From the NCBI GenBank assembly GCA_018064805.1, contig JAGHUN010000019.1, forward strand, positions 1 through 59,122: a stretch of 59,122 nt of DNA, in the 5' to 3' direction. Origin of the DNA: Candidatus Colinaster scatohippi. Lineage in GTDB: Bacteria; Bacillota; Clostridia; Lachnospirales; Lachnospiraceae. The translations under genes were made by a program, and so were the position numbers. Under the pieces are notes generated by a model that was not told the DNA's origin, ran no database searches, and saw only the letters and a program-made list of their open reading frames with translations. How positions within the stretch are numbered: position 1 is the first letter of the stretch; each line of letters opens with the position of its first letter. This document shows positions 20,364-58,692 of this stretch, piece after piece.

Positions 20364-21147
20364 TATTTTCCCTATCTCCATCCAGTTTTTTCAGTGCCCT
20401 TCTTCTCTTTAGAGCAAATCTTAGTGCACCGAACTTATTATATGGGAAGAAGCCGTACACTAAAAGCCTATTCCACTTTCCAAGGCGTGCCTTCAATGTG
20501 CCATCATATGGTCTTCCCCAGATAACGGTACTTTTTCCTAAACGGATGTATTCTATAAAATCGTCATTGTTTTTTACATCACCTTCAATGATGGTATAAG
20601 CAAGACCAACACATTTTTCCCAATGGGCATCGCTTCCCGAAGTAATAGGCTTACCAAACTCTTTTGCTAATTCAACAGCCTCATCATTAGCCCAAGAATC
20701 CTCACCACAGTTAAAGCCTTCAAGAAAATCAAAATCCTTTAATATTGAGCGATCTCTTTTATATTTTCCTGTAGAAAATATACTTAAAAATGGCTCCCCG
20801 CACGGATGTGCCGGTCCCAAGATGCCACCATATCTGTGCACTATTTCTTCAAGTTGCTCTACCCCCAGACCTCTATACTCAAGTATTTCAAGATCCACAC
20901 CATCAGGCATTACAACTAAAAAGTGTCCGGCATCTGACGTGTCATACTCTATACTTTTAAGTACAACAAAGTCATCCGGTGTCTCTTCTTTGTGCTCAAG
21001 GTAATATTTATAACCACCATATGAATCATGGTCTGTGACCATCATGCCATCATATCCCTGCTCTTTTAGTAACCTTATATATTCAATTATGGAAACCTTG
21101 GAATCTGATGATCCTTCTGCTGTATGACAATGCAAATCAAATTTCAT
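20356..21147 (-). CDS. PHP domain metal-dependent phosphoesterase
   Basis: 263 residues. The PHP domain is seen from residue 2: FDLHCHTAEGSSD (motif I), MVTDHDSYGGY (motif II), HPCGEP, and GSDAH near residue 200 (motif IV). These His/Asp clusters bind a trinuclear metal site and cleave phosphoesters; relatives are the TrpH/RNase AM or PHP-type phosphatase groups. The stop overlaps the FHA-ABC start, so it is the first gene of that operon. The last 50 residues are basic and not typical of the core. RBS is AAAGGAATT before ATG. Confidence 0.88.
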   Translation of the reverse strand: MKFDLHCHTAEGSSDSKVSIIEYIRLLKEQGYDGMMVTDHDSYGGYKYYLEHKEETPDDFVVLKSIEYDTSDAGHFLVVMPDGVDLEILEYRGLGVEQLEEIVHRYGGILGPAHPCGEPFLSIFSTGKYKRDRSILKDFDFLEGFNCGEDSWANDEAVELAKEFGKPITSGSDAHWEKCVGLAYTIIEGDVKNNDDFIEYIRLGKSTVIWGRPYDGTLKARLGKWNRLLVYGFFPYNKFGALRFALKRRRALKKLDGDRENNG

Positions 21148-28400: not shown

Positions 28401-31400
28401 ATACTCTTAAGTGCTTCACTCGTAGGATAATGACTAATCTTTTCTCCATTTTGGGTATAATGCAGCTCAACATATCCGGCATTTGTAAGTAGCTCTTTAT
28501 CTATATTAATCTTTAGACCAATGTAATATTCCGCGCTATTCTCACCGGTCTTGCCTAAATCCTTTTTAATGCCATACACAGGCATCAAATTGCCGGATAA
28601 AACAGCTGATTTTTTGCTTTTACTAAAGTTCACGGACGGTATCATCTTATAGGCAATGCCACCCACAGCACGATCCATTGCAGCGACCTCTGATTCAGTA
28701 AGAGCCTCTACTGCATTTTCTGCAATTGGTGATACTTCTCTTGGTCTCCACTGCGCATATAAAACGTTTTCACCTGCACTATCGTCTATATCTACAACAG
28801 ATGTACTTGTGACTTTTTCTCCTCCTTCAGGTGCTGTAAACCACCCCATAAAAACATATCCATCTCTGTAAGCTAGCGGAAGCTGCCCATATGGTTTTCC
28901 TGTTTCCACGGATAAATAAGTAATATCTGACTCTCCGCCCTGACAATCCAGACTAATCTTAACCGGAGTTGCAAACGGTATGTCATATTTCTTAGCATAT
29001 GCCTCTGCCGTACTGTTTTTATATCCATAAATTACAACATTAGGACAACCTATTATTGCATCATCGGCTATTTCACAATCAGGATTTTCGAATACAATTT
29101 TCTTCAACTCATCACTACTAGTGAATGCATATTCACTAACACGCTCTATACCTTTAGAAATAACAACAGCACCATAATAGCAGCTACCAAAAGCATATTT
29201 ATCTATCCCAACAACACGATAGGTATCTCCACTGTTATCATCGGTTGCCTCGGTTACAGAATCCGGAATCACCAAAGTATCCCCTATGCACATAGGATAA
29301 TCTGAATCTATAAGCAGTACTGTCTTTGCTCCCGGTATCATAGACAACTCAACGAACTGAATGTAACACCCACCAATGTTAGTCCAAAATTTCTTTGGTT
29401 TTAATGCAATATCGCGTTTAACACTTGTAATTATCTGCCCACTTGGATTAATCCACGAACCATTCTTAGGAAGCACCAAATCAAGCATAGACTGGTTTTC
29501 TACATACTCCAGATAATATCTATCAGCCAAAAGGTCTACAGGCGCATTAACTAAAGTTTCAGGAAAGACAATTCTTGTTAGTCTATCTCCACCTTCTAAT
29601 ACACTGAAAGCATTAGCGCCAATAGAAACCAGACCTGATTTAAATTCAATCTCTGCAATTTCTGCATCTTCAAATGCATAACTACCGATATATGCAAGCC
29701 CTTTATTAAATTCAATCTCATATATACAACTGTGGTAGAAGGCACTACTACCAATGCTTACAATTGTTGATGGCAAAACAAGACCTTCAACACGTTTAGA
29801 ATAGCTGAACATATATTCGCCAATTCTATCAATTCCCTCTTCTAACTCCACTTCAAATGTGCCACCATAGCCATTCTCATCTCTGTTTCCATAATTATTC
29901 CATGGTAGTCCGGCTGAGGTCTGATAAGTATAGTTTTTAGCACTTCCTTTACCTTTTGTTACTTTTACCTTCTTTAGCTTGTTCGTTCCGGAAACAAACG
30001 AATTTTTACTTATAGACATAGTTGCAGGAAAAGACAAGTATTCCAAATTAGTCATTCCACCTGTAACATAATTGTCAGCAGTTGTCACACTATCAGAAAT
30101 AATCAGTTTTTTTGCAGGTGTCATATAAAAAGAATTGTATCCAACTTTTGTAGTTTTAGTTGAAGAAATAATAATTTCCTCAACTTTATCAAAGCCGGAA
30201 AACATATAGTCAGAAATCGCTTCTATCTCTCCTGCAACAATTATCTTTTTTGCCTTTCTGGTCTCTTCCGTCGACCACGGTGCTGAAGTTATGTATGTAG
30301 GACCCTCAGGCCTGTAATATGCATCCCCTTTTGGAGTTCCATATCCATCAATTGTCAATGTAAATGTATCCGGATCATATTTGTAATGAAGTCCCATATC
30401 ATATCCTTCAAACATAGGATCTATTGACGCACTTTCATCATCACCCAATGACACAAATGTCAGTTTGGTATTGCCGGCAACGTTTTCCTTATTTACAAAT
30501 GCCTCTGCTGTTGAACCTGTATATCCATAAATCACCATCGTTGACGTTCCAAAAGCCTTGGCATCAATCACTGTGTTCATATCCTCAATATATAGTTTTT
30601 TTACAGTATTATTATCAAAAGCACCATATCCGATATAATGGCTTCCCTTACGAAGATGAAACTCCTCTATTACCTTACAGTACGAAAAAAGCTGTCCTGT
30701 ATACATTGTTCCAATCGAACCAATTCCACCTGTTATTTCCACCGTTTCTAAAGCCTCACAGTAACTGAAAGAATTGGTACACATAATATCCACAGCACCA
30801 TTAACTGTAACAGTAGTCAGCTTTGGTAAGTTACTAAACGAAGTGCTCTGAACAAGTGAAACATCACCATTAATCACTATTTCCTTTAAATTCGGGCAAG
30901 CTGGAAAGGTATTAGAAATCTCCCCTGTATCTCCATTTATTGTTAATCTCTCCAACTGGCGACAATATGCTAAATTTTTGGTATTTTCGACCATACGTCC
31001 AGGCATAGTTAACGAAACCAGGTTACTGTCAACGCTCAAAAGGCCACCATCCATTTTTGTAACCAGATAGTTTTTCCCTTCAATCGTTACTTTCTCGGGA
31101 ATAACCAGTTCTTCAGCCGCATGAGTATTCATTGAAAGTGATGTGATTTCCACTTCGCCCTCTACATCCTGATTAGCAAGCTTAATAATTGAATACGCAA
31201 AATCAGAATCACTTGAAACACTATTATGTAATTCATAGCTACCCTTACCAACATAGGCTATTGTCTTATCTCTGTTGTCAGACTCATACCAGGTCCATCC
31301 GGTACCACTTGTAACACCGAAAATCCTAACAGTTATATTAGTATGATTAATAAATTTAGCCCCCTCAATCGGAGCAAATGTAACACATTGATACAAATCC

Positions 31401-32047
31401 GGTGCACTTGTGACCGTAGAAGGCAATATAAATTCGTCTGTTCCCCAAACAGTAAATGAGTTGCCCTCTATTTTCTCAAGTCCCTCCGGCAATTCAATAC
31501 CTGTAAATGCAGTATTTTCGAAAGCCAAATTCTCGATTATCTTTACACCGCTTTTTACAATCATCTTATTAAGACTAAGTTCACGACCATCATCATAGAA
31601 ATATTCCTTTGCTATTTCAGGAAAACCGGTTTTCGGATCAAAAAGACAATCAGAAAAACCTGTAGGAATAACACTTCCTCCATATATAATCAGATCCCCG
31701 ACATTATTAAGTTTCCAGCTTATTGTTTCGCCATCCTCATCTCCATATTCCCATGTGCCACTTCCTACAATAGATGAATCGTCTTCCGCATAGTCTTGTA
31801 TTTCCACAACATCTTCATAATCGAAGTTATCATCCTGATATTCTTCATCTGTTGACAGTTCTTCAACTACATCTTTACTATCATCAGCAGAAGCCTCTTC
31901 TTCCGTATCCGAAATACTATCATCTATATCTATAGTTTGCTCCGCCGCTAATGCTGTCATTGAACCTTGCGGAACAACAGAAAAAAACATGAGTGCAGAA
32001 AGCACACATGCAATTACTTTTTTAGAACATTTTTCTAGTTTTCTCAT
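25421..32047 (-). CDS. Giant secreted BspA-type leucine-rich-repeat protein
   Basis: 2208 residues from ATG 32047 (GGGAGTG upstream); a longer frame adds six residues. A signal peptide (about 1-35, ALAA cleavage) leads to an acidic stretch rich in Asp/Glu (40-100), then a BspA-type opening (GTWEYGD, LIIYGG). Residues about 130-1000 hold two blocks of LRR_5 repeats (patterns like VTSAPDLYQC, KIVFENPDCEI). Then an InlB B-repeat (about 1030-1100, GYVFMGWFTAPEGG), a Big_2-like domain (about 1452-1535), FnIII-like segments (from about 1540) and a second Big_2-like one (about 1700-1785). Adhesion or host/polymer contact is likely. No LPXTG motif or C-terminal membrane segment is seen, so how it attaches is unclear. 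Confidence 0.92.
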   Translation of the reverse strand: MRKLEKCSKKVIACVLSALMFFSVVPQGSMTALAAEQTIDIDDSISDTEEEASADDSKDVVEELSTDEEYQDDNFDYEDVVEIQDYAEDDSSIVGSGTWEYGDEDGETISWKLNNVGDLIIYGGSVIPTGFSDCLFDPKTGFPEIAKEYFYDDGRELSLNKMIVKSGVKIIENLAFENTAFTGIELPEGLEKIEGNSFTVWGTDEFILPSTVTSAPDLYQCVTFAPIEGAKFINHTNITVRIFGVTSGTGWTWYESDNRDKTIAYVGKGSYELHNSVSSDSDFAYSIIKLANQDVEGEVEITSLSMNTHAAEELVIPEKVTIEGKNYLVTKMDGGLLSVDSNLVSLTMPGRMVENTKNLAYCRQLERLTINGDTGEISNTFPACPNLKEIVINGDVSLVQSTSFSNLPKLTTVTVNGAVDIMCTNSFSYCEALETVEITGGIGSIGTMYTGQLFSYCKVIEEFHLRKGSHYIGYGAFDNNTVKKLYIEDMNTVIDAKAFGTSTMVIYGYTGSTAEAFVNKENVAGNTKLTFVSLGDDESASIDPMFEGYDMGLHYKYDPDTFTLTIDGYGTPKGDAYYRPEGPTYITSAPWSTEETRKAKKIIVAGEIEAISDYMFSGFDKVEEIIISSTKTTKVGYNSFYMTPAKKLIISDSVTTADNYVTGGMTNLEYLSFPATMSISKNSFVSGTNKLKKVKVTKGKGSAKNYTYQTSAGLPWNNYGNRDENGYGGTFEVELEEGIDRIGEYMFSYSKRVEGLVLPSTIVSIGSSAFYHSCIYEIEFNKGLAYIGSYAFEDAEIAEIEFKSGLVSIGANAFSVLEGGDRLTRIVFPETLVNAPVDLLADRYYLEYVENQSMLDLVLPKNGSWINPSGQIITSVKRDIALKPKKFWTNIGGCYIQFVELSMIPGAKTVLLIDSDYPMCIGDTLVIPDSVTEATDDNSGDTYRVVGIDKYAFGSCYYGAVVISKGIERVSEYAFTSSDELKKIVFENPDCEIADDAIIGCPNVVIYGYKNSTAEAYAKKYDIPFATPVKISLDCQGGESDITYLSVETGKPYGQLPLAYRDGYVFMGWFTAPEGGEKVTSTSVVDIDDSAGENVLYAQWRPREVSPIAENAVEALTESEVAAMDRAVGGIAYKMIPSVNFSKSKKSAVLSGNLMPVYGIKKDLGKTGENSAEYYIGLKINIDKELLTNAGYVELHYTQNGEKISHYPTSEALKSIRENGSWSFLLNVSGDISDIQVLLDYDGEDYSGSEVTYYLENVITIKLDGIVRNQSVTDIFGEVKENSILGVVKSNPIVKKIDTNTTALVYDSVAYTADTAAIVQEGEKYLSRTEGSEGHFVTMFVEVPESIAGTAYLPKGIAGVEYTRMPQMELIEKKTAKANALYKAMVLDEKGNPRGIQLVWAVDDGFDYELQINWLVGSDTRPSLTQVIQVKAADACYMERPNPKAMLPKSLAFDGINSSMYVGQTQRTNVKIARYYEADEVQLSFESDNPEIISVNGVTGELKALKKGAATVYVYAMKPDGSKSDVKATTKITVKEMNPPLKPVATDIRDTSFELTWTESQRVPAEIYCVPYTDEMGTRNATWKEWFESKIVSGDASVCGNKRTVKAGVTGIQLTGLSAETTYICFIRNVVTTADDTNYYAGVVSAKITTKKPVFDQIRLVAMDGSGPDASIVNPGMIGNYKIENDVPVYTDNASTLTQDIPNVTYAIYEEVSGEMVDVTGEDNSLGVIYSVTSVSYASSDKNIVSVDKNGGLKLGSQSGIADITVTAKDSMGVVRTSAPIRIRVIRKASSLANKNITLNVGKQEALVALIGTDVKGSANEVDLSAVDMFAFAKALQDTGYLVLRNKDMTAMNFDDLALMDKSKARALLQDAYVQAAALVPGKNGISASGNIVKVPVSLTEEASVGKTKGVEATVSIKIMAMAAPIIKKSILRDTSAELQFMPSLTLDSANDDLNAAKLLDKSYYTVSVKDNVTGYVWDDLIKTNDISLLTKGEHGYSITEDSANMYTAHICGFDANKSYSVTVIANFDADEEHSIAVASKAFNIMTQKLLMNEGGALDIKYAPVTVLMSAADADAQLVAMHEIDMTSEGGIVLNSGNTYGIFAEVAPLARLYGNEKLVWTISSGDKSAASLKVSSSTYEVQIDVKRVGDFTVTATSSVTKANMGTFKVHAIPYQSNPESEEKVPVDMPTQTMAIIAEPIWEERRDEE

Positions 32048-32132
32048 GATAGTCACTCCCTTCAAGCCAACTTAAACCCAATTATTTAGTATAGCATCGC
32101 TTAATTTTGTGTGCAATAAAGCCACAGAAATA

Positions 32133-44674: not shown

Positions 44675-45343
44675 TTATGATTTATGACGCTTTGCGTAAT
44701 CCGCTCTTAAAGGTGCACAGCATGCATATACAGCACGATTAGCATCATCCTTGCTTTTTGCCCTTCTAACTGCAGACGTTGCCCGAGACATCACCATATA
44801 ATTGAGGGATGTTCCCATGCTGTCACACTCATAATTGACAGCCCTGTCAGCATCTATTCCAAAACGTCCTGCAACAGCTATTGCATCAATATTAGCTCCC
44901 AGGAAAAGGAATTCCCATCCACGCTTATTCTTAGCTTTCTCTACCATCTTTTTAATTTTATCATATGTATACTTATGGCTTGCATTCTCCATTCCGTCCG
45001 TAGTTATAATAAAAAGTGTCTTCTCAGGTCTGTCCTCTTCCTTTAAACTGTTATGAACTACCTTAATGTGATGAATGGCACCACCAATTGCATCAAGAAG
45101 TGCTGTACACCCTCTCACGTAATACTGTTTATCAGTCATTGGCTGTATCTTACCAACCGGGATTCTGTCATATAATACTTCTGATTTATCATCAAAAAGT
45201 ATGGTTGAAATATATGCTTCTCCCTCTTCACGTGCCTGTTCCTCAAGCATTGAGTTAAACCCACCAATTGTATCGGCTTCAAGCCCTCTCATGGATCCGC
45301 TTCTGTCTAAAATAAAAACTACTTCTGTTAATCCTTTACGCAT
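44675..45343 (-). CDS. vWA domain protein
   Basis: 222 residues, a single von Willebrand A domain. The MIDAS motif DRSGSM is at residues 13-18; the other metal residues are the threonine in CTALLDAIGG and the aspartate in TTDGMEN. No signal peptide. It resembles TerY-like cytosolic vWA proteins that work with kinases or phosphatases, but the pairing is inference. RBS AAGGAGGG. It lies 105 bases downstream of the macro-domain gene on the same strand. Confidence 0.93.
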   Translation of the reverse strand: MRKGLTEVVFILDRSGSMRGLEADTIGGFNSMLEEQAREEGEAYISTILFDDKSEVLYDRIPVGKIQPMTDKQYYVRGCTALLDAIGGAIHHIKVVHNSLKEEDRPEKTLFIITTDGMENASHKYTYDKIKKMVEKAKNKRGWEFLFLGANIDAIAVAGRFGIDADRAVNYECDSMGTSLNYMVMSRATSAVRRAKSKDDANRAVYACCAPLRADYAKRHKS

Positions 45344-45448
45344 AACTACATGCCCTCCTTATTAAAATCACTTTATGTGAAATACCTTATAGGCACAGTA
45401 TACAGAAATAATTTTTATTACCGGTCTCCCACGAGGCGACCTTACATA

Positions 45449-46744
45449 TTATTTAATTATGCATGGAAGACCATGCTCCTCTAACTGAATATCCAGTTCA
45501 ATCATGTCATATATTTCATTCTCAATAAAATATGAGAAAATAATATCTGTCTTATCGCATGGCGACAGGGCATAACCTGCTCTGGCAAGTAAATCCTTGG
45601 TCTCATCAAGATTGAGCTTTGCCCCTACACACAGACACATAGCTGTCAGTTTTTCAGGGTGATGACTAGGATTATTTTTAATCTTTGAAAATACCTTTTT
45701 ATCAATAATTGCACGCTTATACACTTCTGCATTTTCCATGTTTTTATCATGTATCAGATATAACAAATACTCAGAAAAAGTATCCGTGCGATGCCTCATC
45801 CTCTCTTCAAGCTTACTTTCATGCGCCTCATCAAAAAAGGCTGGCATAAAAGTCGCCTGTTCCTTCGCATCCAACCTAGGCGCTGCACTTAATGGAGGTG
45901 ATACTTTATCCTCAACATATGGCTTCGGTTCTGCTGCCACAGGTGCAGATAACGAAAATCCAAAGTCATCATTATTGCTATGCTTATCTTCTGAAGATAT
46001 TAGTCTCGAACTCTTTCGTGCATTATCACGACCTCGCCCACGCTTCGGTTCAGATAACCTTGTTGCAAACAATTTCCCCTCACGCGTTTGCTTTGGCTTA
46101 CGACTTGGAGCTGGTGCTGACATTTCCGACGTAATGGTGTCCGTATAATCCGTTTTTCGCGGAGAATACGGCGCGTATGTCCTAAAATCTGTGAGTTGCT
46201 CCTTCCTCTCGACCACATAATTATGATCGATATACTCTTCCAGTCCCGGATACAACCTCTTTCCAAGCGCTGTGGACGTATCATCAAATACTACCAGATA
46301 CACCATCATGCAACTAGTTAGTAGAAAAGCATTAATCTCATCTACCGCAATTCGCATTCCCTCTTCTTTGGGATAACCCAAGCTACCAGTTGAAATTAAA
46401 GGAAATGCGATTGAACTAATCTTGTATTCTGCCGCAAGTGCCAGACTTTTACGGTAACACTGTCTAAGCTTTTCTTCCTCCTCTGACTGACCATCCATAT
46501 ATTTAGGACTAACTGCATGAACAATATATCTTGCTCCCAGATTAAATCCCGGAGTAATGAATACTTCCCCCTCAGGAACACTGCCTATTTTTTCCCGTCT
46601 ATATTTTAATAGTTCATCATATCCGGCAGCATTATATATTGCTGTATCACATCCGGCACCAACAGCCGGCAGCGAGTTAGCAGTATTAACAATAGCTTCT
46701 GTATGCATCCCAGTAATATCATTACGAACAACCTTTAATGGCAT
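45449..46744 (-). CDS. Macro domain protein with HTH-like C-terminus
   Basis: 431 residues. The macro domain (about 1-165) shows VNTANSLP (adenine/ribose contact), GAGCDTAIYNAAG and PLISTGSLGYP (phosphate loop), features of ADP-ribose binding or deacetylating/de-ADP-ribosylating enzymes. A long Pro/Arg/Lys/Ser disordered linker (190-300) leads to a C-terminal domain (about 325-431) with EVYKRAI, LNLDETKDLLARAGY, LSPCDKTDIIFSYFIEN, IYDMIELDIQLEEHG. That domain aligns by eye to the small protein next to the kinase at 34347. So the protein could link ADP-ribose recognition with a kinase pathway (inference). RBS GAGGTGG; 16 bases after the PfkB gene. Confidence 0.85.
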   Translation of the reverse strand: MPLKVVRNDITGMHTEAIVNTANSLPAVGAGCDTAIYNAAGYDELLKYRREKIGSVPEGEVFITPGFNLGARYIVHAVSPKYMDGQSEEEEKLRQCYRKSLALAAEYKISSIAFPLISTGSLGYPKEEGMRIAVDEINAFLLTSCMMVYLVVFDDTSTALGKRLYPGLEEYIDHNYVVERKEQLTDFRTYAPYSPRKTDYTDTITSEMSAPAPSRKPKQTREGKLFATRLSEPKRGRGRDNARKSSRLISSEDKHSNNDDFGFSLSAPVAAEPKPYVEDKVSPPLSAAPRLDAKEQATFMPAFFDEAHESKLEERMRHRTDTFSEYLLYLIHDKNMENAEVYKRAIIDKKVFSKIKNNPSHHPEKLTAMCLCVGAKLNLDETKDLLARAGYALSPCDKTDIIFSYFIENEIYDMIELDIQLEEHGLPCIIK

Positions 46745-49384: not shown

Positions 49385-49427
49385 AAAAATATGCTTTGGT
49401 GAAATTATAACATACTCACCAAAGCAT
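49385..49427 (-). terminator. Terminator of the PcfJ/VirD4-like run
   Basis: ATGCTTTGGTGA (49391-49402) pairs perfectly with TCACCAAAGCAT (49416-49427), 12 bp; minus-strand ATTTTTTC follows. Confidence 0.92.
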
Positions 49428-49494: not shown

Positions 49495-50238
49495 TCATCC
49501 TAATTTCAACAGTCTTTCAGCGTTACCAACGCATATATCATCAATATATTCCTTATCATAATTAGAATAGAGATAATCCACATATTCTACAACTTTTGCA
49601 GGGCGACGTTCCACGTCATGTGCATCTGTTCCTACGAAATCTATCATTTTCTCTTTGACCAGTCTTCTGGCCATTTGATTCATTTCATTCTCCCATGCAG
49701 TATTCTCATAAAACAAATCGCAGAGATTTAATTGAAAGAGGCATCCAATATTCTTTAATTCCATCAATTCCTCAAACGTCAATCCATAACGTTCTACATG
49801 TGCTATAACCGGTATGTACCCGGCTTCAAACAGTGCCTCCATTGCAGGAATAACTTCCTGCAATGTAATTCCACCCATATAGAACTCAATCAGAACCAGA
49901 TTAGTATTATTCAATGTTGGATATTTTTCTCTTTTTAATTTTTTAATAATCGCCTTAATGGATTCATCGGAATCATAATAGATTTCCGCACCCAGAAATA
50001 ATTCAAGATTAATCTCTTGATCTCTGCACCATTCCCTAATTGCATCCATATTCTTCCTGATACGCGATAGCTTATTATAATTATAACTATCCGCATGAGG
50101 TGTAAAAAACAGATATCGTACTCCCTCTTCATATGCCATACGAAGCATTTGCCTGGTCATTTCCAAATCTGTTGCGCCATCATCAAGTGCGGGTAAAATA
50201 TGCGTATGTATGTCAACGATGGACCCCATATCATTCAT
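49495..50238 (-). CDS. CpsB/CapC-type PHP tyrosine phosphatase
   Basis: 247 residues. PHP motifs: DIHTHILPALDDGA (I), FTPHAD (II), VIAHVERY (III) and GTDAHDVERR (IV). This is the CpsB/YwqE family that dephosphorylates tyrosine kinases of capsule synthesis with metal ions. No capsule gene or tyrosine kinase is visible here, so the target is open. It is the last gene before the terminator, 54 bases downstream of a YD-type protein gene. RBS AGAGGCT. Confidence 0.92.
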   Translation of the reverse strand: MNDMGSIVDIHTHILPALDDGATDLEMTRQMLRMAYEEGVRYLFFTPHADSYNYNKLSRIRKNMDAIREWCRDQEINLELFLGAEIYYDSDESIKAIIKKLKREKYPTLNNTNLVLIEFYMGGITLQEVIPAMEALFEAGYIPVIAHVERYGLTFEELMELKNIGCLFQLNLCDLFYENTAWENEMNQMARRLVKEKMIDFVGTDAHDVERRPAKVVEYVDYLYSNYDKEYIDDICVGNAERLLKLG

Positions 50239-50292
50239 AATTATAGCCTCTTTTCAATGCACAGTTTGAAATACATTCTATACGCATATACG

Positions 50293-51237
50293 TTATATTC
50301 CTTCATAATAATATAGCGTACGGAATTCTGCATTTACACAATCCTCTTCATCGTATCTTATTGCATTTTCTTCCATCAAAAGCCCCTGATTATCATAGGT
50401 GTAGTCTGTAATTAACCTGCCGGTAATTTTATTTTCATACTCTCCTGTTTCCCAATTGTAATTTAATGAATAATCAGTTCTCTCTTCATTAAGCAGACTG
50501 TCATCATTATTATATCTATAATTACAAACGAGTAATGTCGAGTTATGACTGTCCTGGATTACCGATATGATATTGTCATGCTCATCATACTTATAGGTAT
50601 AATCATATGCTGATTGTTGAAGATTATTTCCAGTCCTCTCGATACTCTCTGCATAATGCTTAATTCTGACATTAATCTCATTTCCATGACTATCATATTC
50701 CTTAGTTTCTTCCCAGGCATATTGAGGGTCCGGTGGTCTGTGTACCACAACAATACATTTGGGACTTTTTCTAATATACTCTGCTGTATTTACACTATTT
50801 ATGCTATTTTCACCATCATCAAGATGATACTCACTTTTTATTTCTCTTCCATACTTGTCATATGTGAATAAATTATGTTCACTAAATTCTGAATAATACT
50901 GCTCATCTATATTATAAGACCCATCGTCCTTGTATGTATAAGATAAAGTCTGCCACAACTCATTAGTATTCCCAGAATTATTCGAACAATTGTATGCCTG
51001 TCTCCGTATTATTCGATTAAACTCATCATACTCATAATATATGACCCTTGATATTTCCCCATTCAAGTATTGTTCCTCAGCAACTAACAATGGAGTGTTA
51101 TATACATTATCTTCATTCACCAACTGACCATTAGGGAGTTTAACAACCAAATCGCTCTCCCCCCTGGGATTAAAATAATGCACAATTATCACCATAAGTG
51201 CAATAACCAGTACACATGAAATCACCCTTTTCCTCAT
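50293..51237 (-). CDS. Membrane-anchored YD-repeat-like protein 1
   Basis: 314 residues. One N-terminal hydrophobic segment (about 5-22), then VKLPNGQLVNEDNVYNTPL, and at least six Tyr-Asp strand motifs such as YEYDEFNRIIR and YTYKYDEHDNIISV, as in RHS/YD-repeat proteins. The number is small, so it is not a toxin of full Rhs type. It is a paralog of the neighbouring gene (same PNG.LVNE motif), so the pair arose by tandem duplication. Probably outside the membrane. RBS GGAGGT. Confidence 0.8.
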   Translation of the reverse strand: MRKRVISCVLVIALMVIIVHYFNPRGESDLVVKLPNGQLVNEDNVYNTPLLVAEEQYLNGEISRVIYYEYDEFNRIIRRQAYNCSNNSGNTNELWQTLSYTYKDDGSYNIDEQYYSEFSEHNLFTYDKYGREIKSEYHLDDGENSINSVNTAEYIRKSPKCIVVVHRPPDPQYAWEETKEYDSHGNEINVRIKHYAESIERTGNNLQQSAYDYTYKYDEHDNIISVIQDSHNSTLLVCNYRYNNDDSLLNEERTDYSLNYNWETGEYENKITGRLITDYTYDNQGLLMEENAIRYDEEDCVNAEFRTLYYYEGI

Positions 51238-51263
51238 ATATCCTATACCTCCAACTCAAGAGA

Positions 51264-52058
51264 TTACTCCTCCGCATATGTGTAAGTAGTAACATACTGT
51301 TTTTCTATATCACCAAGCCTATTGAAACGCATAGATTTCTTCTCAACAACTCTTCCTTCATCATATGTATATTCCTCTATGCGATACTGGTGCTCTTCTT
51401 CTTTTCCCCATATAAATTTTTCTACTAAAATATTACCATCTGAATCATACTCATATTCATAGTTATACTTTTCAAAATGTCCCAGAGTTGTTATAGACAC
51501 ACTACTGCTCACATCACCAAGGATATTAAAAGTTTCTCTTCCAACTAAAAAACCATTCTCAAGACGCCTTATATAATACCGATTCCCATTCCAATATCTT
51601 GATATCGCACAAAGCCTGGCTTTTTTTTCGTTAAAATCATCTGCAACATACATTCTGTCCTGGTTATCATATATACAAATTGTGCTATTCACATCATTGT
51701 ATTTATGCTCAAAAAATGTGCCATCCTCACCCAAAATAAACTCTTTTGTTGAAAAACATTCGTACATATCTTTTGATTCAATATATGAATATTCCGTCTC
51801 CTTTGTGATGCGATTATAGCTATCATACTCATATTCTATCAGCCCAATCTTCCTATTTTCATTCTCTTCCACCTCCTCTTCTGATATAAGCAATGGAGTC
51901 TCATGGATTAGGTATTCATTTACCAGTTCACCATTAGGGAGTTCTACAATAGTTTCTTCCGGCTTGCTTCCAAACAAAAGAATAACTATTACCGGACTCA
52001 CCAACAATAAAAGAACAACTAAAATCAAGCAAACTGTAATGATAACTTTTTTCTTCAT
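51264..52058 (-). CDS. Membrane-anchored YD-repeat-like protein 2
   Basis: 264 residues, same plan as the neighbour: N-terminal membrane segment (about 5-28), VELPNGELVNEYLIHETPL, then YD-type strands (EYEYDSYNRITKE, YEYEYDSDGNILVE). Two or three fewer strands than the paralog. No catalytic motif. RBS AAGGAAGAAA. It lies between the acidic 333-residue protein and the paralog with gaps of 40 and 26 bases, in the same run as the VirD4-like gene. Confidence 0.8.
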   Translation of the reverse strand: MKKKVIITVCLILVVLLLLVSPVIVILLFGSKPEETIVELPNGELVNEYLIHETPLLISEEEVEENENRKIGLIEYEYDSYNRITKETEYSYIESKDMYECFSTKEFILGEDGTFFEHKYNDVNSTICIYDNQDRMYVADDFNEKKARLCAISRYWNGNRYYIRRLENGFLVGRETFNILGDVSSSVSITTLGHFEKYNYEYEYDSDGNILVEKFIWGKEEEHQYRIEEYTYDEGRVVEKKSMRFNRLGDIEKQYVTTYTYAEE

Positions 52059-52098
52059 AATCTTTCTTCCTTATAATAACTTAAATATTCTTTACGCA

Positions 52099-53100
52099 TT
52101 ATGGCCTTGAAACAATCACAAATATCTGTGCCATTTCCTGCATCCCAATCTGACTAATTGCCGTAATATGGGTTTTTCCATCAGCAAGATGGTTTGCTTC
52201 CATTATATCAGAAATTTTGCATAATTCTTCAATATAATCATCCGTTTGGGAATTTAATCTTACATGAATCCACCTCAAGCATTCATCATCGTTTACTCCC
52301 TCTAATAACGATCCCAGTAAATCAGCTGCTTCCTCATAATCATCATCGGAATGCGCAAGTGCATATGCATAATCATATCTCCTTCCCGGCGCAAAAAACT
52401 CGGCAATTTCAAAAGAACTAAGAGAAAGTGCATAATCAATGTTAAAACACTTATCAAAATCAGTTACCAACGCCTTTACTATATCTCCACAGCCTAAGTG
52501 CTCTTCCACGCAGATTGGCTCTTCTTTTTTCTTTTTCAACTTAGTTACCGACAATGCTATGTGGCCGCGCACTGCATCAAGAATATGCAGTCTTTTTAGT
52601 ACAACCGCTATTCTGTTGCCTTGCTCAAATTCGACATCGCCCATACACTTATCGGCCATAATAAATGACACATACATCCCTTTATCATCATATATGTGGC
52701 AAATTGGCCCAACCAAAAGAGCAACCGTACCTATTACTTCCGTATATTCCTTCTTATTCTTAAGCAGGCCACTTATTAGTTCAAATTCTGCCCCATATTT
52801 ACTAAAGTCACTGATTGCTTCATTTACCTTATCTATCTCTGCGCCAACTTCGGTATGTCTTAATTTTATCTTTTCCAGTAAAAATTCTCGCATATCCTTA
52901 TCTCTCATGGCCAATTCATACTCCTCCGGATCGCCAAATGGAAAATCCTCATCAAAGAGCAAGTCATCAGCCGGTTCACCCTTGCCATTCTTACCTTCTA
53001 TATATTCATCATCAATATCCTCATCCACATACTCAATTTCCATATACTCATCATCACGTTCTAAATTAATAGCATTAATGTCAACTCCCAATATATCCAT
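52099..53100 (-). CDS. Hypothetical acidic protein of PcfJ-linked run
   Basis: 333 residues. The first 70 are very acidic (YVDEDIDDEYIEG and LLFDEDFPFGDPEEYE). A helix (75-110) precedes a compact region (about 115-195: VALLVGPICHIYDDKGMYVSF, then AVVLKRLHILDAVRGHIALS) with a beta-barrel (OB-like) look. The end is helical. No family recognised. It follows the PcfJ-like gene by 31 bases and has AGGAGAGG before its ATG, so it is a real member of the run. Confidence 0.65.
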   Translation of the reverse strand: MDILGVDINAINLERDDEYMEIEYVDEDIDDEYIEGKNGKGEPADDLLFDEDFPFGDPEEYELAMRDKDMREFLLEKIKLRHTEVGAEIDKVNEAISDFSKYGAEFELISGLLKNKKEYTEVIGTVALLVGPICHIYDDKGMYVSFIMADKCMGDVEFEQGNRIAVVLKRLHILDAVRGHIALSVTKLKKKKEEPICVEEHLGCGDIVKALVTDFDKCFNIDYALSLSSFEIAEFFAPGRRYDYAYALAHSDDDYEEAADLLGSLLEGVNDDECLRWIHVRLNSQTDDYIEELCKISDIMEANHLADGKTHITAISQIGMQEMAQIFVIVSRP

Positions 53101-53131
53101 TTTCTATACCTCTCCTAACCATCACACCACG

Positions 53132-54568
53132 TTATCCAACTTTTTTCGAATGTTTCTTATCATATTCCAACAAATACTTATCCAATTCCACAGGTGTATC
53201 GCAGACATCTATACCAAAAGCATCATACAAAAAATCAATCCACGAATTAGTTCTAATTAAACGGTGCGGATTATAATCAAATCCCTTTATCTCCGCGTAT
53301 CTCTCTATAAAAGAATATGTTGCACAATCAGGATATTGGTTGCACTGCTTAAATACCTGTACTATTTCATTTTCAGATATCTCCATTGTCACATACGATT
53401 TATCCGGTCTGGATTTTTTTCTTAAGAATACTATCGTCGTTTTGCCGATTGCATGACGATATACATATTCGCCCAGACAATTATGCTGCTTTATTGCCTC
53501 CATACACATCTCTTCGCCTGATTTTGGCAGCCTTACTAGATATTGATTATCCTCATATTCAAATTCTGCTTCAGCAGCTCTTATTGATACCATACTGTTC
53601 TCATAAGCTCTACCATTTCTATAGTCAATATAAGTTTCTAATCGAATAGTTTCATCTTCTACGTTCTCCGGCTGTGGTAATCTTATTCCTATGCCTTCAA
53701 CTTCCCTTTTGGCTTCCAGAAAACGGCCATACAAATCAACTATATCTGCGCAATTCTCACCTGCCAGTTTATTAAAGACTGCGCGACTAAATCCCTTCCC
53801 TCCATACACACCACCACACATATATAATCTTTCCAAATACTCAAATTGTGCATCAGACAGCTTATCATCAGTAACATAATCAGAATATGCTTCATATATC
53901 CCAATCGCTACATCAATGGTGTCCTGTGCATACAAATAATAAACTAACGATGGTTTATTCAGTATTCTCAACAGTTTTAACGGCACTCTTTTGCCTAATA
54001 ACCATTCCGGTGAGGATGCAAGTACATCATACTCATAGACAGCATCCAGATTAAAACCTATATGATTAAGTTCGCTCTTATATAACAATTCTCTAATACC
54101 ACTTCTAAAGCTTGCAAAATACATATTTGAAAGTGCCTCAGCCAAATACATATACGAGTAATCCTCCAAATGCCATTCAGGAAATGTATCTTTAGCCTTC
54201 GCTAAAAACTCGTTAATATAGTATTTATTATAATTGCCATTTCCCTTATAAATTTCTCTTATATAATAGAGCAACCGCTTCTCTGTATCCGGATCTGGCT
54301 TAACTCCATTGGCAATGACAAATCTATGGTATATTTCCGGGTAAAGCATGCAATCCCATACATATATATCAACATAGTTTTTCTCTTCCACATCTGTCCT
54401 AAGAAAAAGAAACAGGCAAAAGCCTTCAGGATCATTGCTAAACTCACATTCCATATAATTCATTTCCTCGGCATCAGCCTGTGGAAATTCACATTCATTA
54501 TAATTACTATTTGCAGTTCCCTGAATATCATAAAGAGTCCTCTCACACTCTCTATTAGTAAATAGCAT
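53132..54568 (-). CDS. PcfJ-like protein
   Basis: 478 residues. The C-terminal part (about 335-440) carries the PcfJ pattern: a conserved HNCLGEYVYRHAIGKTTI, the FLRKKSRPDKSYVTMEI segment and VFKQCNQYPD, as in PcfJ from conjugative plasmid pCF10 and many Firmicute mobile elements. The function of PcfJ is unclear. The N-terminal 330 residues are unassigned and Tyr/Glu-rich. A strong RBS (GGGAGGG). It is 43 bases downstream of the 536-residue unknown, in one run with the VirD4-like ATPase. On a plain reading it signals a conjugation-derived module. Confidence 0.8.
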   Translation of the reverse strand: MLFTNRECERTLYDIQGTANSNYNECEFPQADAEEMNYMECEFSNDPEGFCLFLFLRTDVEEKNYVDIYVWDCMLYPEIYHRFVIANGVKPDPDTEKRLLYYIREIYKGNGNYNKYYINEFLAKAKDTFPEWHLEDYSYMYLAEALSNMYFASFRSGIRELLYKSELNHIGFNLDAVYEYDVLASSPEWLLGKRVPLKLLRILNKPSLVYYLYAQDTIDVAIGIYEAYSDYVTDDKLSDAQFEYLERLYMCGGVYGGKGFSRAVFNKLAGENCADIVDLYGRFLEAKREVEGIGIRLPQPENVEDETIRLETYIDYRNGRAYENSMVSIRAAEAEFEYEDNQYLVRLPKSGEEMCMEAIKQHNCLGEYVYRHAIGKTTIVFLRKKSRPDKSYVTMEISENEIVQVFKQCNQYPDCATYSFIERYAEIKGFDYNPHRLIRTNSWIDFLYDAFGIDVCDTPVELDKYLLEYDKKHSKKVG

Positions 54569-54611
54569 TATATATCCCTCCCTTCTTTGCTATTGTTTTT
54601 ATCTACAATAA

Positions 54612-56213
54612 TTACCTTACATAACATACATAGTGGCAAGGCATACCCCTAAGATTAAAAGTATTTTCAACTATAACCATTTCCTCCATAAGCAATTCTC
54701 TACTATACTGAATTTCGAATAAACCTGTCTCCAAACTGAAGGATACATTCCCTTCCTCGTTTTTAGTAAGTCCGCCTACTATCATCTCCCCAATAAGCGA
54801 GCCATTCTTCAATTCATATTTTTCAGCCTCAATGTCTTTACCATTCAATGTAAAATTCCCAACACATCCACCACTTGCGGAAGCTGCACAAGTTTCCTCA
54901 ATATATTCATCCGTCCAAAATGCATCTTTCATAAGTAAGTCACGTAACTTATTGATATCACGAATCACTTTAGACAGTTTCTCAGAAGCATTCATTTCAT
55001 ATAACATCCAATAAATATCTTCAGTTATAAATGTCCCACTTCCTTTTTCGTTTAATCTCTTTGAAACATCCCCAAACATATAAAAATAATCATGTAAATT
55101 CTCATCTTCCGAAAAATACTTTTCCAACAGTTCAATTAAAAAGTAATAGGTTCTCATTTCCTTGCTTTTACATAAATCCAGGTTCGGAAGTAAATGCTTT
55201 TTTAAATAAGCAATTGTAAGTTTCACCTCGTCTTCACCCTCGGAAGAAGTATTCTCATCGGAATCATCTCTAAATAAATGCGAATGACGCATAATATCCC
55301 TTCTGATGGCGTTATATACAAATCGATTTGATTCTTCATCTGTGATTTCCATTCTTTCCCCATCAATCAAAAGCTTATACGGCCTAAACATCACCGGCTT
55401 TAGATATGCCGGGCATACATAGATGTAATCTTCAATAATGCGATAGCTTTCCATCGGATTATATTCTTTGATATTTCTAATCCCGCTACTTATTTCAGCA
55501 ACCAGCATATTATCTCTAATAACTATAGGAATAATATCATCTAATAAACCCACACATTTATAGGGCTTAATTACTTCCACATTCGTATCCAAATGGTATT
55601 CTGCATAAAAATCAATTGCATAATTGGGTCTTAAATATAGACGTCCACGTAGAGCGTCAAAGCCTATAATGTGCATATACTTGTTAGAAATTGTACGGTT
55701 AACCGGTCCGTCATCCTTATTTTTAAGGCGATATTCCAACTGCAAATCATTACTATAATCTTTAAGTGAAATGCCATCATCCACACTTACACATCTAAAG
55801 AGGTAACAATCATTATCTCTAATTATGTAATAGAGCTTATCGCCTATAAGATATGCCTCCGGCAAAATTTCAAACAAGTCATTGCACACATCAAATACCC
55901 AGTTAGGTAACAGTTTTGTATTAAGCCTCTCAAACAATTCTTCCATATTTTCAAAATGTAAATGCTCTTTTAAATCTGTAATTATAGGTTTTGCAAGGAA
56001 TTTGAACCTGTCTTTAAGTGCATCAGCACTACTCATATCAAAATCAAGGATATCCCTTATATTTTCAACAGTTTCCCTTGATATAAATTCCTTAAGTGTA
56101 AAGTACACTAAAAAAGCTTTCAGGTTATAATTCCTACCGTCTTTACCCTCTTTTGCAATCAATTCACTTCCAAGTCCATAGCTAAGGCACTCTCCTGCTC
56201 TGTAAAATTTCAC
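54612..56213 (-). CDS. Hypothetical protein of PcfJ/VirD4-like run
   Basis: About 533 residues. The GTG at 56213 is chosen because GGAGGT lies 9 bases before it; a GTG at 56222 would overlap the ATPase stop but sits 1 base from the GGAGG. Soluble, mixed alpha/beta, Tyr-rich, with a central region of beta strands (RGRLYLRPNYAIDFYAEYH) and an acidic linker (DDSDENTSSEGEDE) near 310. No signal peptide, membrane segment or known motif. Position between the VirD4-like and PcfJ-like genes suggests a core component. I do not recognise it. Confidence 0.7.
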   Translation of the reverse strand: MKFYRAGECLSYGLGSELIAKEGKDGRNYNLKAFLVYFTLKEFISRETVENIRDILDFDMSSADALKDRFKFLAKPIITDLKEHLHFENMEELFERLNTKLLPNWVFDVCNDLFEILPEAYLIGDKLYYIIRDNDCYLFRCVSVDDGISLKDYSNDLQLEYRLKNKDDGPVNRTISNKYMHIIGFDALRGRLYLRPNYAIDFYAEYHLDTNVEVIKPYKCVGLLDDIIPIVIRDNMLVAEISSGIRNIKEYNPMESYRIIEDYIYVCPAYLKPVMFRPYKLLIDGERMEITDEESNRFVYNAIRRDIMRHSHLFRDDSDENTSSEGEDEVKLTIAYLKKHLLPNLDLCKSKEMRTYYFLIELLEKYFSEDENLHDYFYMFGDVSKRLNEKGSGTFITEDIYWMLYEMNASEKLSKVIRDINKLRDLLMKDAFWTDEYIEETCAASASGGCVGNFTLNGKDIEAEKYELKNGSLIGEMIVGGLTKNEEGNVSFSLETGLFEIQYSRELLMEEMVIVENTFNLRGMPCHYVCYVR

Positions 56214-56218
56214 TACGC

Positions 56219-57838
56219 TCACACCTCCATTCTGATTATTCTATCCAATTCAGCAGCTAATATTGCCGGGAGTTCCGCTTTCTTCCTCATCTCCTTTTCA
56301 CGCATTTCTATCATTTTTTGTCTATCATCTCTGCGCGCTTCATATTCGCTACGAGACTTTTCTTTTGCCAGTTCCTTCACCTTTTCTTTAAATAAGTTCG
56401 GTGTTTTCTCTAGTTTTGTTCTTTCAGCAAATTCAACTCTTTCCAGTGGTTCAAGCATTTTATAACTCGGCAAATCAGGGAATGTCGTCCTATACGGCAT
56501 ATGTCGATCTAATAAAAGCAATGCATCCCCCAACCTAAATCTTGCCAAATCATTTGTGCTTATTAGTGGTTCAATTTTACCGGTAGTTTCATTAATTCTA
56601 TTGCCACATCTATCACTAATTAGTTTCTGAAGTTCCATATCCGTGGATGACAAATAAACAAAATTCTGTGCATTTCCAATTATTATGTCTGTCAAATCTT
56701 TACCGTAAAGAACATTCAACTGCTTAAGGCTTTGCAATACCAATACCACCCTGATTCCTCGTCCTCTACTTGTTGTCATCATCTCATTAATATTATTGAA
56801 TTTAATATGTCCGGCTTCATCAATAATAAAATGTGTACTTTTAGGAAGTCTTGAAAAGGTTTTTCCATCCTTCTGTGCATACTTGATGAGACTGCTATAT
56901 ATTGTCTCAACAATTGCGGCTACTATGGAAGAATATGCTTTAGGTGTCTCATCACTAGTGATTATGAACAGAGCTGTTGGTTTATCGGTAGATACGAGTT
57001 CATCTATCGAAAAAGAAGAATCCGATGTCAAATCTGCAACATCGTCGTCCAGAAGTGCATGAACCAAACCGGAAGAAAAGACGGCATGAATGGATTGCCT
57101 AGTGTCATTCGGAGCATCAGCAAAAGGAATTCCTAATTCATAACATTTGTCATCCCTGTGCGCATCAAGATATGTCTGAATCCACATCTTAGTTCCTTCT
57201 TTAACCATTCCAACGATATGAATTCCGTAAATTGTCTGCAAGTTAACTTCTTCAGGTTCATAAATTTCCGCAGCTATACAGAAATAACACAAGAATAAAT
57301 TAACACTGGTTTCTGTCCAAAATTTGTCATTAACATCCTCTACTTCGGAATATAGCTGCGATGCTATTTCACTAACCATAACCAGGGCCTTGCCCTTTTC
57401 ACCTTCCTTGTAAACTTTTGCAGCTCCCTTTAGGAAATTAAACCTATCACCTTTTGTGGGTTCTCGGAAATTAATTACTCGGACTCTATATCCCCTCTCC
57501 ATAAGCAATGTGTAAAATATTCCATATAATTCATTCTTGGGATCATGAACCACAAAAGGCATTCTGGCATAAATACATGAAAGAATGTACTGCAGGAGGT
57601 ATGTAGTCTTTCCTGCCCCCGTTGATGAAGCAATAATCGTATTAGTATCTCTTCCATCAACCAAAGCGCCTATAACCTCTCCCCTATTATTACGCCTTAT
57701 CTCAATTCCAATTCCTGCGGCCTCATTGATAACATCCGGATCATCATACCTAACTTCGGTATAATCGGCTTCAAGTTCTTCCGGTTCTGCATATCTGCTA
57801 TAAGTAACATTTGGATTAATATAATGATTGCCTATCAT
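56219..57838 (-). CDS. VirD4/TraG-like coupling ATPase without membrane domain
   Basis: About 539 residues from ATG 57838 (AAGGGG 8 bases upstream); a GTG at 57847 adds three. T4CP motifs: Walker A SSTGAGKTTYLL (about 70), VVHDPKNE, the conserved DTRQSIHAVF, Walker B THFIIDEAGH (about 330), then VLVLQSLKQLN and NAQNFVYLSS. These ATPases feed DNA or protein substrates to a type IV secretion channel. Unlike VirD4, TraG or PcfC, it has no N-terminal membrane helices: the first 60 residues are hydrophilic. The C-terminal 60 residues are a charged helix. It overlaps the upstream degenerate AAA gene. Confidence 0.87.
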   Translation of the reverse strand: MIGNHYINPNVTYSRYAEPEELEADYTEVRYDDPDVINEAAGIGIEIRRNNRGEVIGALVDGRDTNTIIASSTGAGKTTYLLQYILSCIYARMPFVVHDPKNELYGIFYTLLMERGYRVRVINFREPTKGDRFNFLKGAAKVYKEGEKGKALVMVSEIASQLYSEVEDVNDKFWTETSVNLFLCYFCIAAEIYEPEEVNLQTIYGIHIVGMVKEGTKMWIQTYLDAHRDDKCYELGIPFADAPNDTRQSIHAVFSSGLVHALLDDDVADLTSDSSFSIDELVSTDKPTALFIITSDETPKAYSSIVAAIVETIYSSLIKYAQKDGKTFSRLPKSTHFIIDEAGHIKFNNINEMMTTSRGRGIRVVLVLQSLKQLNVLYGKDLTDIIIGNAQNFVYLSSTDMELQKLISDRCGNRINETTGKIEPLISTNDLARFRLGDALLLLDRHMPYRTTFPDLPSYKMLEPLERVEFAERTKLEKTPNLFKEKVKELAKEKSRSEYEARRDDRQKMIEMREKEMRKKAELPAILAAELDRIIRMEV

Positions 57839-57843
57839 ACTTT

Positions 57844-58692
57844 TCACCCCTTCCCTTTAACAAAACCGATACTGTAAGTGCCATTTGCTTTTTCTTCTGC
57901 CTCTCTTAACATCTTTTTCTCAAGTTGCTCAACCATAGACTCATCTATGATTAGGTCTTCTTCACCTTTTTCCCACATACCTATTTCAAGATATAATCTA
58001 TCGACAAATGAGCTAAGTGACTTGTATCCCTTATAATCAGCCATGGCAACCAAACCGGGAAGTACTTTCTCACCAAGAAGTTTTACTGCCGTTTTACTTA
58101 TTGAAACTCCATTATCATTCAGTTTGTCGACAATATAGGAACGGCCCAAATCACTGCCTGGTTTATCGAATATTACCTCATCAATATTAGTTACTTCCCT
58201 CAATTTCGCTAATAGTTTCTTTTGGGCAGAGAATTCAGGAAGAATATGAAAAATGAAATGAATATTATCCTTATTGCCCTCAATAAATTCAAGTAATCTT
58301 CCAAGCGACTCACTTTTAATTAAATCCATACCTGTATATTCCCTTAACGAGATAATCATGGTTCCGTAAAATCTATTACGATACTCCGCCACAACTCTAG
58401 GAGAGTCATAGAATAACTTCTCCTCCATCTCATTATTTTTAGGAAAAACGAGTTCCAGAAAAGTCTCTCTACCTCTAACCTTAAGCGCCAGTGATTCATC
58501 AACGATCTTGGCATAAGCCTTACCATAGGTTGTTAATCCATAACCTTCATCTGCTGTCAGAAGCAGGTTTGGAGCGCTCTTTCTAATTGTGTCAAATCTG
58601 GAATTTAGTAGTTTATCAGCAACGTGCAGCTTTTCCCTTGCAACATCATTCATAAACATCGTTTCTATTTCCTTTTCAGTTTTTTCAGTCAT
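57844..58692 (-). CDS. Degenerate AAA-like protein, first gene of the run
   Basis: 282 residues, soluble. Residues about 38-60 read LLLTADEGYGLTTYGKAYA, an AAA+-type P-loop lacking the usual GK[ST] lysine; a Walker-B-like IHFIFHILPEF lies near 140. The C-terminal 130 residues are a helical lid-like part. So it resembles an AAA+ ATPase whose ATP site has been lost, perhaps a regulator or adaptor of the VirD4-like protein. It overlaps that gene's start by bases, implying coupling. RBS AAGGTAGAGA; the run starts here, divergent from the AraC gene. A TATAAT box lies 58 bases upstream. Confidence 0.7.
   Translation of the reverse strand: MTEKTEKEIETMFMNDVAREKLHVADKLLNSRFDTIRKSAPNLLLTADEGYGLTTYGKAYAKIVDESLALKVRGRETFLELVFPKNNEMEEKLFYDSPRVVAEYRNRFYGTMIISLREYTGMDLIKSESLGRLLEFIEGNKDNIHFIFHILPEFSAQKKLLAKLREVTNIDEVIFDKPGSDLGRSYIVDKLNDNGVSISKTAVKLLGEKVLPGLVAMADYKGYKSLSSFVDRLYLEIGMWEKGEEDLIIDESMVEQLEKKMLREAEEKANGTYSIGFVKGKG

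Follow-up and report, generated by a model that had tools for sequence, protein, structure and literature searches.

What does an ATPase of the VirD4/TraG type do where no conjugation machinery accompanies it? T4CPs are gatekeepers of conjugation and secretion, and an eight-gene run in Candidatus Colinaster scatohippi encodes such an ATPase together with a PcfJ-like protein and several proteins of no evident family. The original prediction, made from the DNA alone, left two readings for this run: a decayed element, or a stand-alone system, for example for protein transfer to the surface or for defence against invaders. The window, by which we mean the whole stretch of 59,122 nucleotides that was analysed, is the entire contig C20 of a MAG with a completeness of 74.7%. 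Our comparison of this locus with its relatives hints at a machine for protein degradation, not at a mobile element in decay.

All eight open reading frames are found on the minus strand where they had been placed, and the run ends, as proposed, in a single terminator (Table 1). The A/B and B/C junctions each consist of a 4-base GTGA overlap, and the gaps downstream of gene C measure, in order, 43, 31, 40, 26 and 54 bases. The terminator has two arms of 12 bases (49427-49416 and 49402-49391) followed by ATTTTTT; its loop put it outside the reach of our consensus scan, which is limited to loops of 8 bases. A divergent gene, AraC-like as named by eye, lies upstream of A.

Table 1. Features of the eight-gene run, with positions counted from the first base of the window.
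Feature	Position	Strand	Description
Gene A	57844..58692	-	282 aa; degenerate AAA+ protein, predicted HslU/CbbX-like fold; tail ...SIGFVKGKG, with IGF at residues 275-277
Gene B	56219..57847	-	542 aa; soluble VirD4/TraG-type ATPase
Gene C	54612..56222	-	536 aa; no assigned family
Gene D	53132..54568	-	478 aa; PcfJ-like C-terminal domain
Gene E	52099..53100	-	333 aa; very acidic (net charge -40)
Gene F	51264..52058	-	264 aa; one N-terminal hydrophobic segment; paralogue of G
Gene G	50293..51237	-	314 aa; one N-terminal hydrophobic segment; weak YD/RHS match
Gene H	49495..50238	-	247 aa; CpsB/CapC-type PHP phosphatase
Intrinsic terminator	49391..49427	-	12-bp stem, 13-base loop, T run; read directly

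Gene B was correctly recognized as a VirD4/TraG-type ATPase lacking membrane segments. Its product matches the Pfam family T4SS-DNA_transf (PF02534) at E 1.8e-35 (123.2 bits, above the cut-off of 20.1) and the CD1115 VirD4 family NF045973 at E 1.7e-56 (192 bits, below the curated cut-off of 250), and an SSTGAGKT P-loop and a FIIDEA Walker B motif can be read by eye. The most hydrophobic 19-residue stretch of the window's protein has a mean of 1.2, which indicates that there is no N-terminal membrane domain. Among relatives, a 19-residue mean of at least 1.9 is reached by 0/33 B proteins linked to A or to ClpP, as compared to 10/23 conjugative-type rows of our tree, a label that denotes B matches without A or ClpP and that is not based on conjugation genes throughout. 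A plasmid search returned 1995 matching records, all below 60% identity, and the ones listed are VirD4-like conjugal genes at 24-29% identity.

The product of gene A had been described as a degenerate AAA-like protein, a description that fits both its predicted fold and its P-loop. Among solved folds, the structure model of A (pLDDT 83) comes closest to HslU, p97, FtsH and CbbX, with PAN also similar; these matches, RFC and RuvB among them, all lie within 1 Z of one another (VIA-align structure comparison). As modeled, A is an AAA+ fold like those of p97 and of the unfoldases of proteases (HslU, FtsH, PAN). The P-loop of the window's A is decayed and its Walker A is not intact; among eight aligned A proteins, a GSGKS/GTGKS Walker A is present only in loci L037 and L038.

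The pairing of these two genes is widespread. A adjoins B in 23 loci of 22 genomes, the window included. A search with the B protein over 397 family genomes gave A beside B in 10/16 fetched neighborhoods, a B-profile search over 391 class genomes in 5/12, and a wider B-profile search over 295 order genomes in 7/11 stretches fetched for strong matches. The five A-linked loci of the class search rank directly behind the window, with E values of 2e-107 or lower against 3e-92 for the next match, and the 14 matches better than 1e-110 in the order search comprise the window, nine A-linked loci and four without A. When an A profile was run over the 397 family genomes, 27 matched: eight single-domain A proteins beside B, with double-AAA proteins making up most of the others. 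A was assigned by profiles in L039, L046 and L163, tentatively by position, size and tail in L045 (hhalign probability 58), and was seen only in stop-to-stop frames in L172, as ORF calling drops overlapping frames; this also hid ClpP in L172, L174 and L182. Single-protein scans of genome contigs and of viral contigs were uninformative. Scanning 84,980 GTDB species with a B sub-profile yielded 251 relatives, and A stands beside B in 75 of the best 80 of these loci, of which 32 belong to one close clade and nine are contigs of the first set (L214, L229, L255, L256, L267, L269, L272, L274 and L275); four of the remaining five run off the contig at B. The relatives include Lachnospiraceae isolates NC2008, NK4A179, AB2028 and XPB1003, Oscillospiraceae and Ruminococcus MAGs, a Mollicutes MAG and a Cloacimonadota MAG. 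In G643, the genome of the window's nearest relative, the order A-B-C is kept. The conserved core is A-B, with C in the nearest relative.

Could this core be what is left of a conjugative element, or of a mobilisable one? B is related to T4CPs and D resembles PcfJ, and three loci give the idea some substance: in G110, only a C-terminal piece of C remains, with a serine recombinase and a Mob-like gene (identified by eye in both cases) as its neighbors; in G586, a ClpP-linked VirD4-like gene that has no A, and whose branch within the A-linked clade is very long, lies about 6.4 kb from a relaxase; and B of G172 is interrupted by a stop. The last is the only broken B among the 23 A-B loci. The absence of a relaxase and of VirB4 beside the run, on which the original prediction had built, extends to the whole MAG (74.7% complete), in which neither PF03432 nor the VirB4 query found a match, and VirB4 is absent from 10/18 genomes searched (that of the window and 9/17 others), some of them 99-100% complete. 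Seeds for relaxase, VirB4, VirB6 and TcpE matched 0/22 fetched A-B loci, as opposed to 7/10 conjugative-type controls and L051; within 6 kb of the GTDB loci (best 80 of 251), where some contigs end sooner, these seeds matched 0/80. Of 13 A-B contigs from 12 genomes, one (G946:C33) carries a PF00589 integrase, at a distance of 22 kb from B, and A was not found in 10 conjugative-type loci, in 10 short ClpP-linked VirD4 loci or in L051. With relaxase and VirB4 unmatched beside the loci compared, we reject a remnant as the explanation of the run and regard it as highly improbable. By the criteria that came with the original prediction, homologous loci lying inside elements with relaxase and VirB4 or frequent disruption of the ATPase gene, the decayed element lacks support; the stand-alone system holds up, inasmuch as A-B recurs over many Clostridia families without an adjoining relaxase or VirB4.

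The remaining genes are less constant. Gene C had been listed as a 533-residue protein of unknown type; the lack of a credible family match is confirmed (best E 0.18), and its length is corrected to that in Table 1. C also follows B in G643, at 30% identity. The PcfJ-like assignment of D is sound (E 1.3e-18, 67.7 bits, cut-off 25) and applies to the C-terminal part only; G643 has a distant relative (24%, E 7e-9) some 13 kb past C. E agrees with its earlier description as an acidic protein outside known families (best E 0.023). F and G are paralogous over 117 aa (34%). They had been called two YD-type membrane proteins: each does have a hydrophobic segment, but the RHS/YD match is weak (E 0.0014, below the curated cut-off) and concerns G alone. 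H, predicted to be a PHP phosphatase, is one of the CpsB/CapC type (CpsB_CapC E 2.2e-58; PHP itself E 0.008) and is probably a passenger on the same transcript. In the related loci compared, E to H have no match (E up to 0.01) and no linked relative was seen, and the notion of a strict eight-gene system was rejected. C is accessory to the A-B core, as is perhaps D.

Within about 18 kb, the G643 locus also encodes a DUF2201/VWA metallopeptidase-like gene, a MoxR-like ATPase, an SNF2-like helicase and the PcfJ relative of D. A membrane protein with an HExxH...E..DARxYA motif, zincin-like by eye, lies near B in L035 (G643, directly upstream of A), L042, L122, L124 (on the other strand) and L051; the two that were scanned have no Pfam match. 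Its candidacy as a constant partner is weakened, since these five B loci are set against 0/80 GTDB loci (best 80 of 251), and the protein does not occur in the window.

A different neighbor points to proteolysis. A ClpP gene directly adjoins A-B in 9/23 loci (L041, L122, L123, L124, L125, L167, L168, L170 and L172), as identified by Pfam CLP_protease in five of the nine (E 8e-57 to 5e-71) and by a ClpP profile or by eye in the others. It also follows B, within 25 bases or overlapping, in GTDB loci L238, L249, L262 and L278 (4/80; best 80 of 251), so that 13 loci overall have an A-B operon that includes a ClpP peptidase gene. The window, 14/23 A-B loci and 76/80 GTDB loci (again the best 80 of 251) have no operon ClpP; the genome of the window has a single ClpP, on another contig. 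The catalytic Ser and His are kept in all 20 linked ClpPs examined, and the Asp column holds D, except for N in L124 and L125.

The linkage also appears when approached from the side of the peptidase. PF00574 was searched in 75 family genomes picked regardless of VirD4, with matches listed down to 62 bits, below the bands used. Housekeeping ClpPs score 284-300 bits and the ClpP2 type 267-274, followed by one copy at 250, eleven at 160-201, and then phage-type and lower matches. Nine of the eleven in the 160-201-bit subfamily have a soluble VirD4-like gene as their neighbor, in one case with a small intervening ORF; of the other two, G367:C2 has no VirD4 beside ClpP and G347:C48 lies at a contig end. 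Control paralogues beside a VirD4-like gene numbered 0/10, namely 0/4 of the ClpP2 type (four of five copies fetched) and 0/6 of the phage type (seven stretches fetched, six with a called ClpP). In 18 genomes chosen for VirD4, a VirD4-like gene stands next to 11/11 ClpPs that score 160-240 bits, three of these ClpPs also being in the draw. A second group of VirD4 proteins, shorter (about 415-450 aa), adjoins ClpP without A. A tree of 63 B proteins separates, with support 97/90, the A-linked side (29 rows, among them seven 'solo' rows and the long-branched L051) from the other 34 rows, and the 11 short ClpP-linked rows form a clade of their own (100/99) within the conjugative-type side. Since ClpP-linked VirD4s fall into two separate clades, the linkage arose at least twice; about two switches suffice to place the ClpP label on the tree.

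How A-B might contact ClpP is suggested by the C-terminus of A. Clp ATPases dock ClpP via a (L/I/V)-G-(F/L) tripeptide (PMC8745299), and this consensus is matched by the IGF of the window's A, on a tail rather than on a loop. A tail of the form [AVILMF]GF in the last 20 residues is found in 12/14 A proteins without an operon ClpP (strict consensus in 9/14) and in 0/8 of those with one, which L172 makes 0/9. As background, these loci contain 525 ORFs of 200 aa or more, of which 14 carry the tail motif in their last 12 residues; eight of the 14 are A proteins. When GTDB B proteins (best 80 of 251) were clustered at 65% identity, 15 of the 20 clusters with A had the tail and 14 the strict consensus; both the tail and an operon ClpP are missing from the large NC2008-like clade, in which 30 loci have A. 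That tail and operon ClpP are mutually exclusive (12/14 versus 0/8, Fisher 1.4e-4) was considered, an idea weakened by L238 and L249, where A with its IGF, B and ClpP share one operon, and by the tree, which needs only about two switches. In terms of gene order, these two operons are the most direct link between tail and ClpP. Since the strict tail is missing from the first set's ClpP-linked A proteins, the tail is not a general link to ClpP. Double-AAA proteins share an xGF tail, which may therefore be an inherited trait of that AAA family; one such gene, ending RIGFVE, lies upstream in L249, and in G378 the end of a ClpP gene is 11 bases from the start of a double-AAA gene that falls in the range of the A profile and has the tail IGL.

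We propose that A-B serves as the motor in a machine that is not conjugative and would unfold proteins and hand them to ClpP. B, to judge from its family, could form a pulling ring without a T4SS, with A sitting on the ring and docking ClpP via its loose C-terminal IGF. Some relatives encode a dedicated ClpP in the same operon; in the genome of the window, A-B would make use of the single ClpP encoded elsewhere. C and D might choose the cargo in this branch, or be the cargo, which is a guess. Most A-B operons contain no ClpP, and the kinase-, TIR- and sigma-factor-like genes in the vicinity of some loci would also fit a signaling or defense role; for these reasons we put the probability that A-B is an ATP-driven unfoldase feeding ClpP, in the window the housekeeping copy, at roughly 0.45.

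The same scarcity of ClpP in A-B operons would be expected if A-B were instead a p97-like remodeling or segregase machine in signaling or stress control, with any nearby ClpP acting on the same pathway and not being fed by A-B. A is as similar to p97 and CbbX as to HslU, and some loci have kinase, PP2C, FHA, TIR and sigma/anti-sigma-like genes in their vicinity (named by eye; kinase and TIR also matched by search). However, the 9/11 linkage in the undirected draw, its two origins and the A(IGF)-B-ClpP operons would be difficult to account for if A-B and ClpP were not in contact, and we consider this alternative unlikely.

HerA-type ATPases act in defense, and B stems from a family of DNA pumps. 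It is thus conceivable that A-B pumps DNA or acts on invaders as a stand-alone defense system with variable partners, namely C, D, ClpP and TIR. TIR genes lie near L037 and L125, a kinase matching PADLOC models is present in L125 and L123, and the helicase near the G643 locus would be in keeping with such a role. Yet of the eight genes B alone matches PADLOC-DB 2023 (mad8 E 2.9e-9; Cas3b E 0.009), with no match for the other seven at E 1 and no one system matched, the loci read contain no nuclease as a constant partner, and the partner that is constant, A, is unfoldase-like. A role in defense strikes us as distinctly improbable. Neither of the functions first suggested for the run, protein transfer to the surface or defense against invaders, found direct support, and the neighbors point to proteolysis.

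Returning to the proposed protease motor, a VirD4-type conjugation pump may have been turned into a Clp-protease motor more than once, with a membrane-free VirD4 ring and a degenerate, HslU/CbbX-like AAA+ adaptor with an IGF tail together feeding a dedicated or the housekeeping ClpP; this wider scenario is tentative, and we hold it a little more loosely than the reading for the window itself. If true, it would describe an ATP-dependent protease driven by something other than an Hsp100/AAA+ unfoldase. A conserved, unannotated unit of gut and rumen Clostridia in which such a motor is joined to an AAA+ partner and, in part of its range, to ClpP would be a protein machine of a new type and would give a cellular protease a new origin. 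T4CPs without a membrane domain and ClpP machines are already known separately. The literature searched, with most subscription journals outside its coverage, contained no report linking VirD4/TraG or SpoVK with ClpP as partners, incidental co-mention aside, and described no stand-alone VirD4 modules. Because no known system was found to combine these parts, we judge the module to be of a new kind, its mechanism being hypothetical. A-B genes call for caution in the use of the label 'conjugal transfer protein' and in their use as marks of mobile elements.

Several known systems share individual features with A-B. The CD1115-family VirD4-like T4CPs of Gram-positive bacteria have the nucleotide-binding core in common with B, but B has no membrane segment, no adjoining relaxase or VirB4, and a constant AAA+ partner. 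Among T4CPs known to lack a membrane domain is TraJ of the conjugative plasmid pIP501, which is paired with a small membrane protein (PMC7434980 and PMC7431656). Set beside TraJ by description, B is likewise free of a membrane domain, whereas its partner A is a soluble AAA+ protein and, unlike for TraJ, there is no transfer operon around it. AAA proteins of the CbbX/SpoVK type include double-AAA proteins of 600-740 aa, in contrast to A, a single degenerate domain paired with B. Finally, in the Clp proteases (ClpX/ClpA with ClpP) and HslUV the motor is an Hsp100/AAA+ protein that carries its docking motif on an internal loop; A differs in its decayed P-loop and in bearing the motif on a C-terminal tail, and the motor would be B, which does not belong to the AAA+/Hsp100 proteins.

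A second clade of soluble VirD4 proteins, about 415-450 aa in length, adjoins ClpP at loci from which gene A (encoding the degenerate AAA+ protein) is absent, and constitutes a distinct ClpP-VirD4 pair, often accompanied by an XRE-like regulator gene (by eye). In genome G378, a ClpP paralogue (250 bits) is followed after 11 bases by a gene for a double-AAA (SpoVK-like) protein. The C-terminus of this protein, HIGLI, carries the ClpP-docking motif in its IGL variant, and many double-AAA proteins end in xGF.

Gene C, which directly follows the soluble VirD4/TraG-type ATPase gene B in the window, is reduced to a C-terminal remnant in genome G110. The remnant directly adjoins two genes that were identified by eye, one for a serine recombinase and the other Mob-like; this homologue has been cut by a mobile element. 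Upstream of the A-B pair, two loci belonging to different families encode a giant protein, accompanied by genes that by eye resemble those for sigma and anti-sigma factors. A recurrent unannotated membrane protein lies near the VirD4-like genes of five loci.

Features of the window and of related loci
Feature	Locus	Coordinates
ClpP paralogue, double-AAA gene	L068, L182	G378:C12:48715-51040
Gene C remnant	L003	G110:C32:1-5635
VirD4 (~415-450 aa) with ClpP	L050, L174-L177, L179, L180, L183-L185	
Membrane protein, HExxH...E..DARxYA	L035	17886-19001
Same	L042, L122, L124, L051	
~1165-aa protein region	L121	12099-17177
Same	L124	11000-16119
FHA-ABC ATPase-like protein	Window	18660-20381
BspA-like protein	Window	25421-32065
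vWA, macro-domain-like proteins	Window	44675-46744

Elsewhere in the window, FHA domains are apparently fused to an ABC ATPase in one protein (by eye), near one gene that resembles a histidine kinase gene and another that is PHP-like, and a secreted repeat protein of 2214 residues appears leucine-rich and BspA-like (by eye). A vWA-domain protein precedes one that by eye resembles macro-domain proteins; such pairs are of a kind known from stress or conflict loci.
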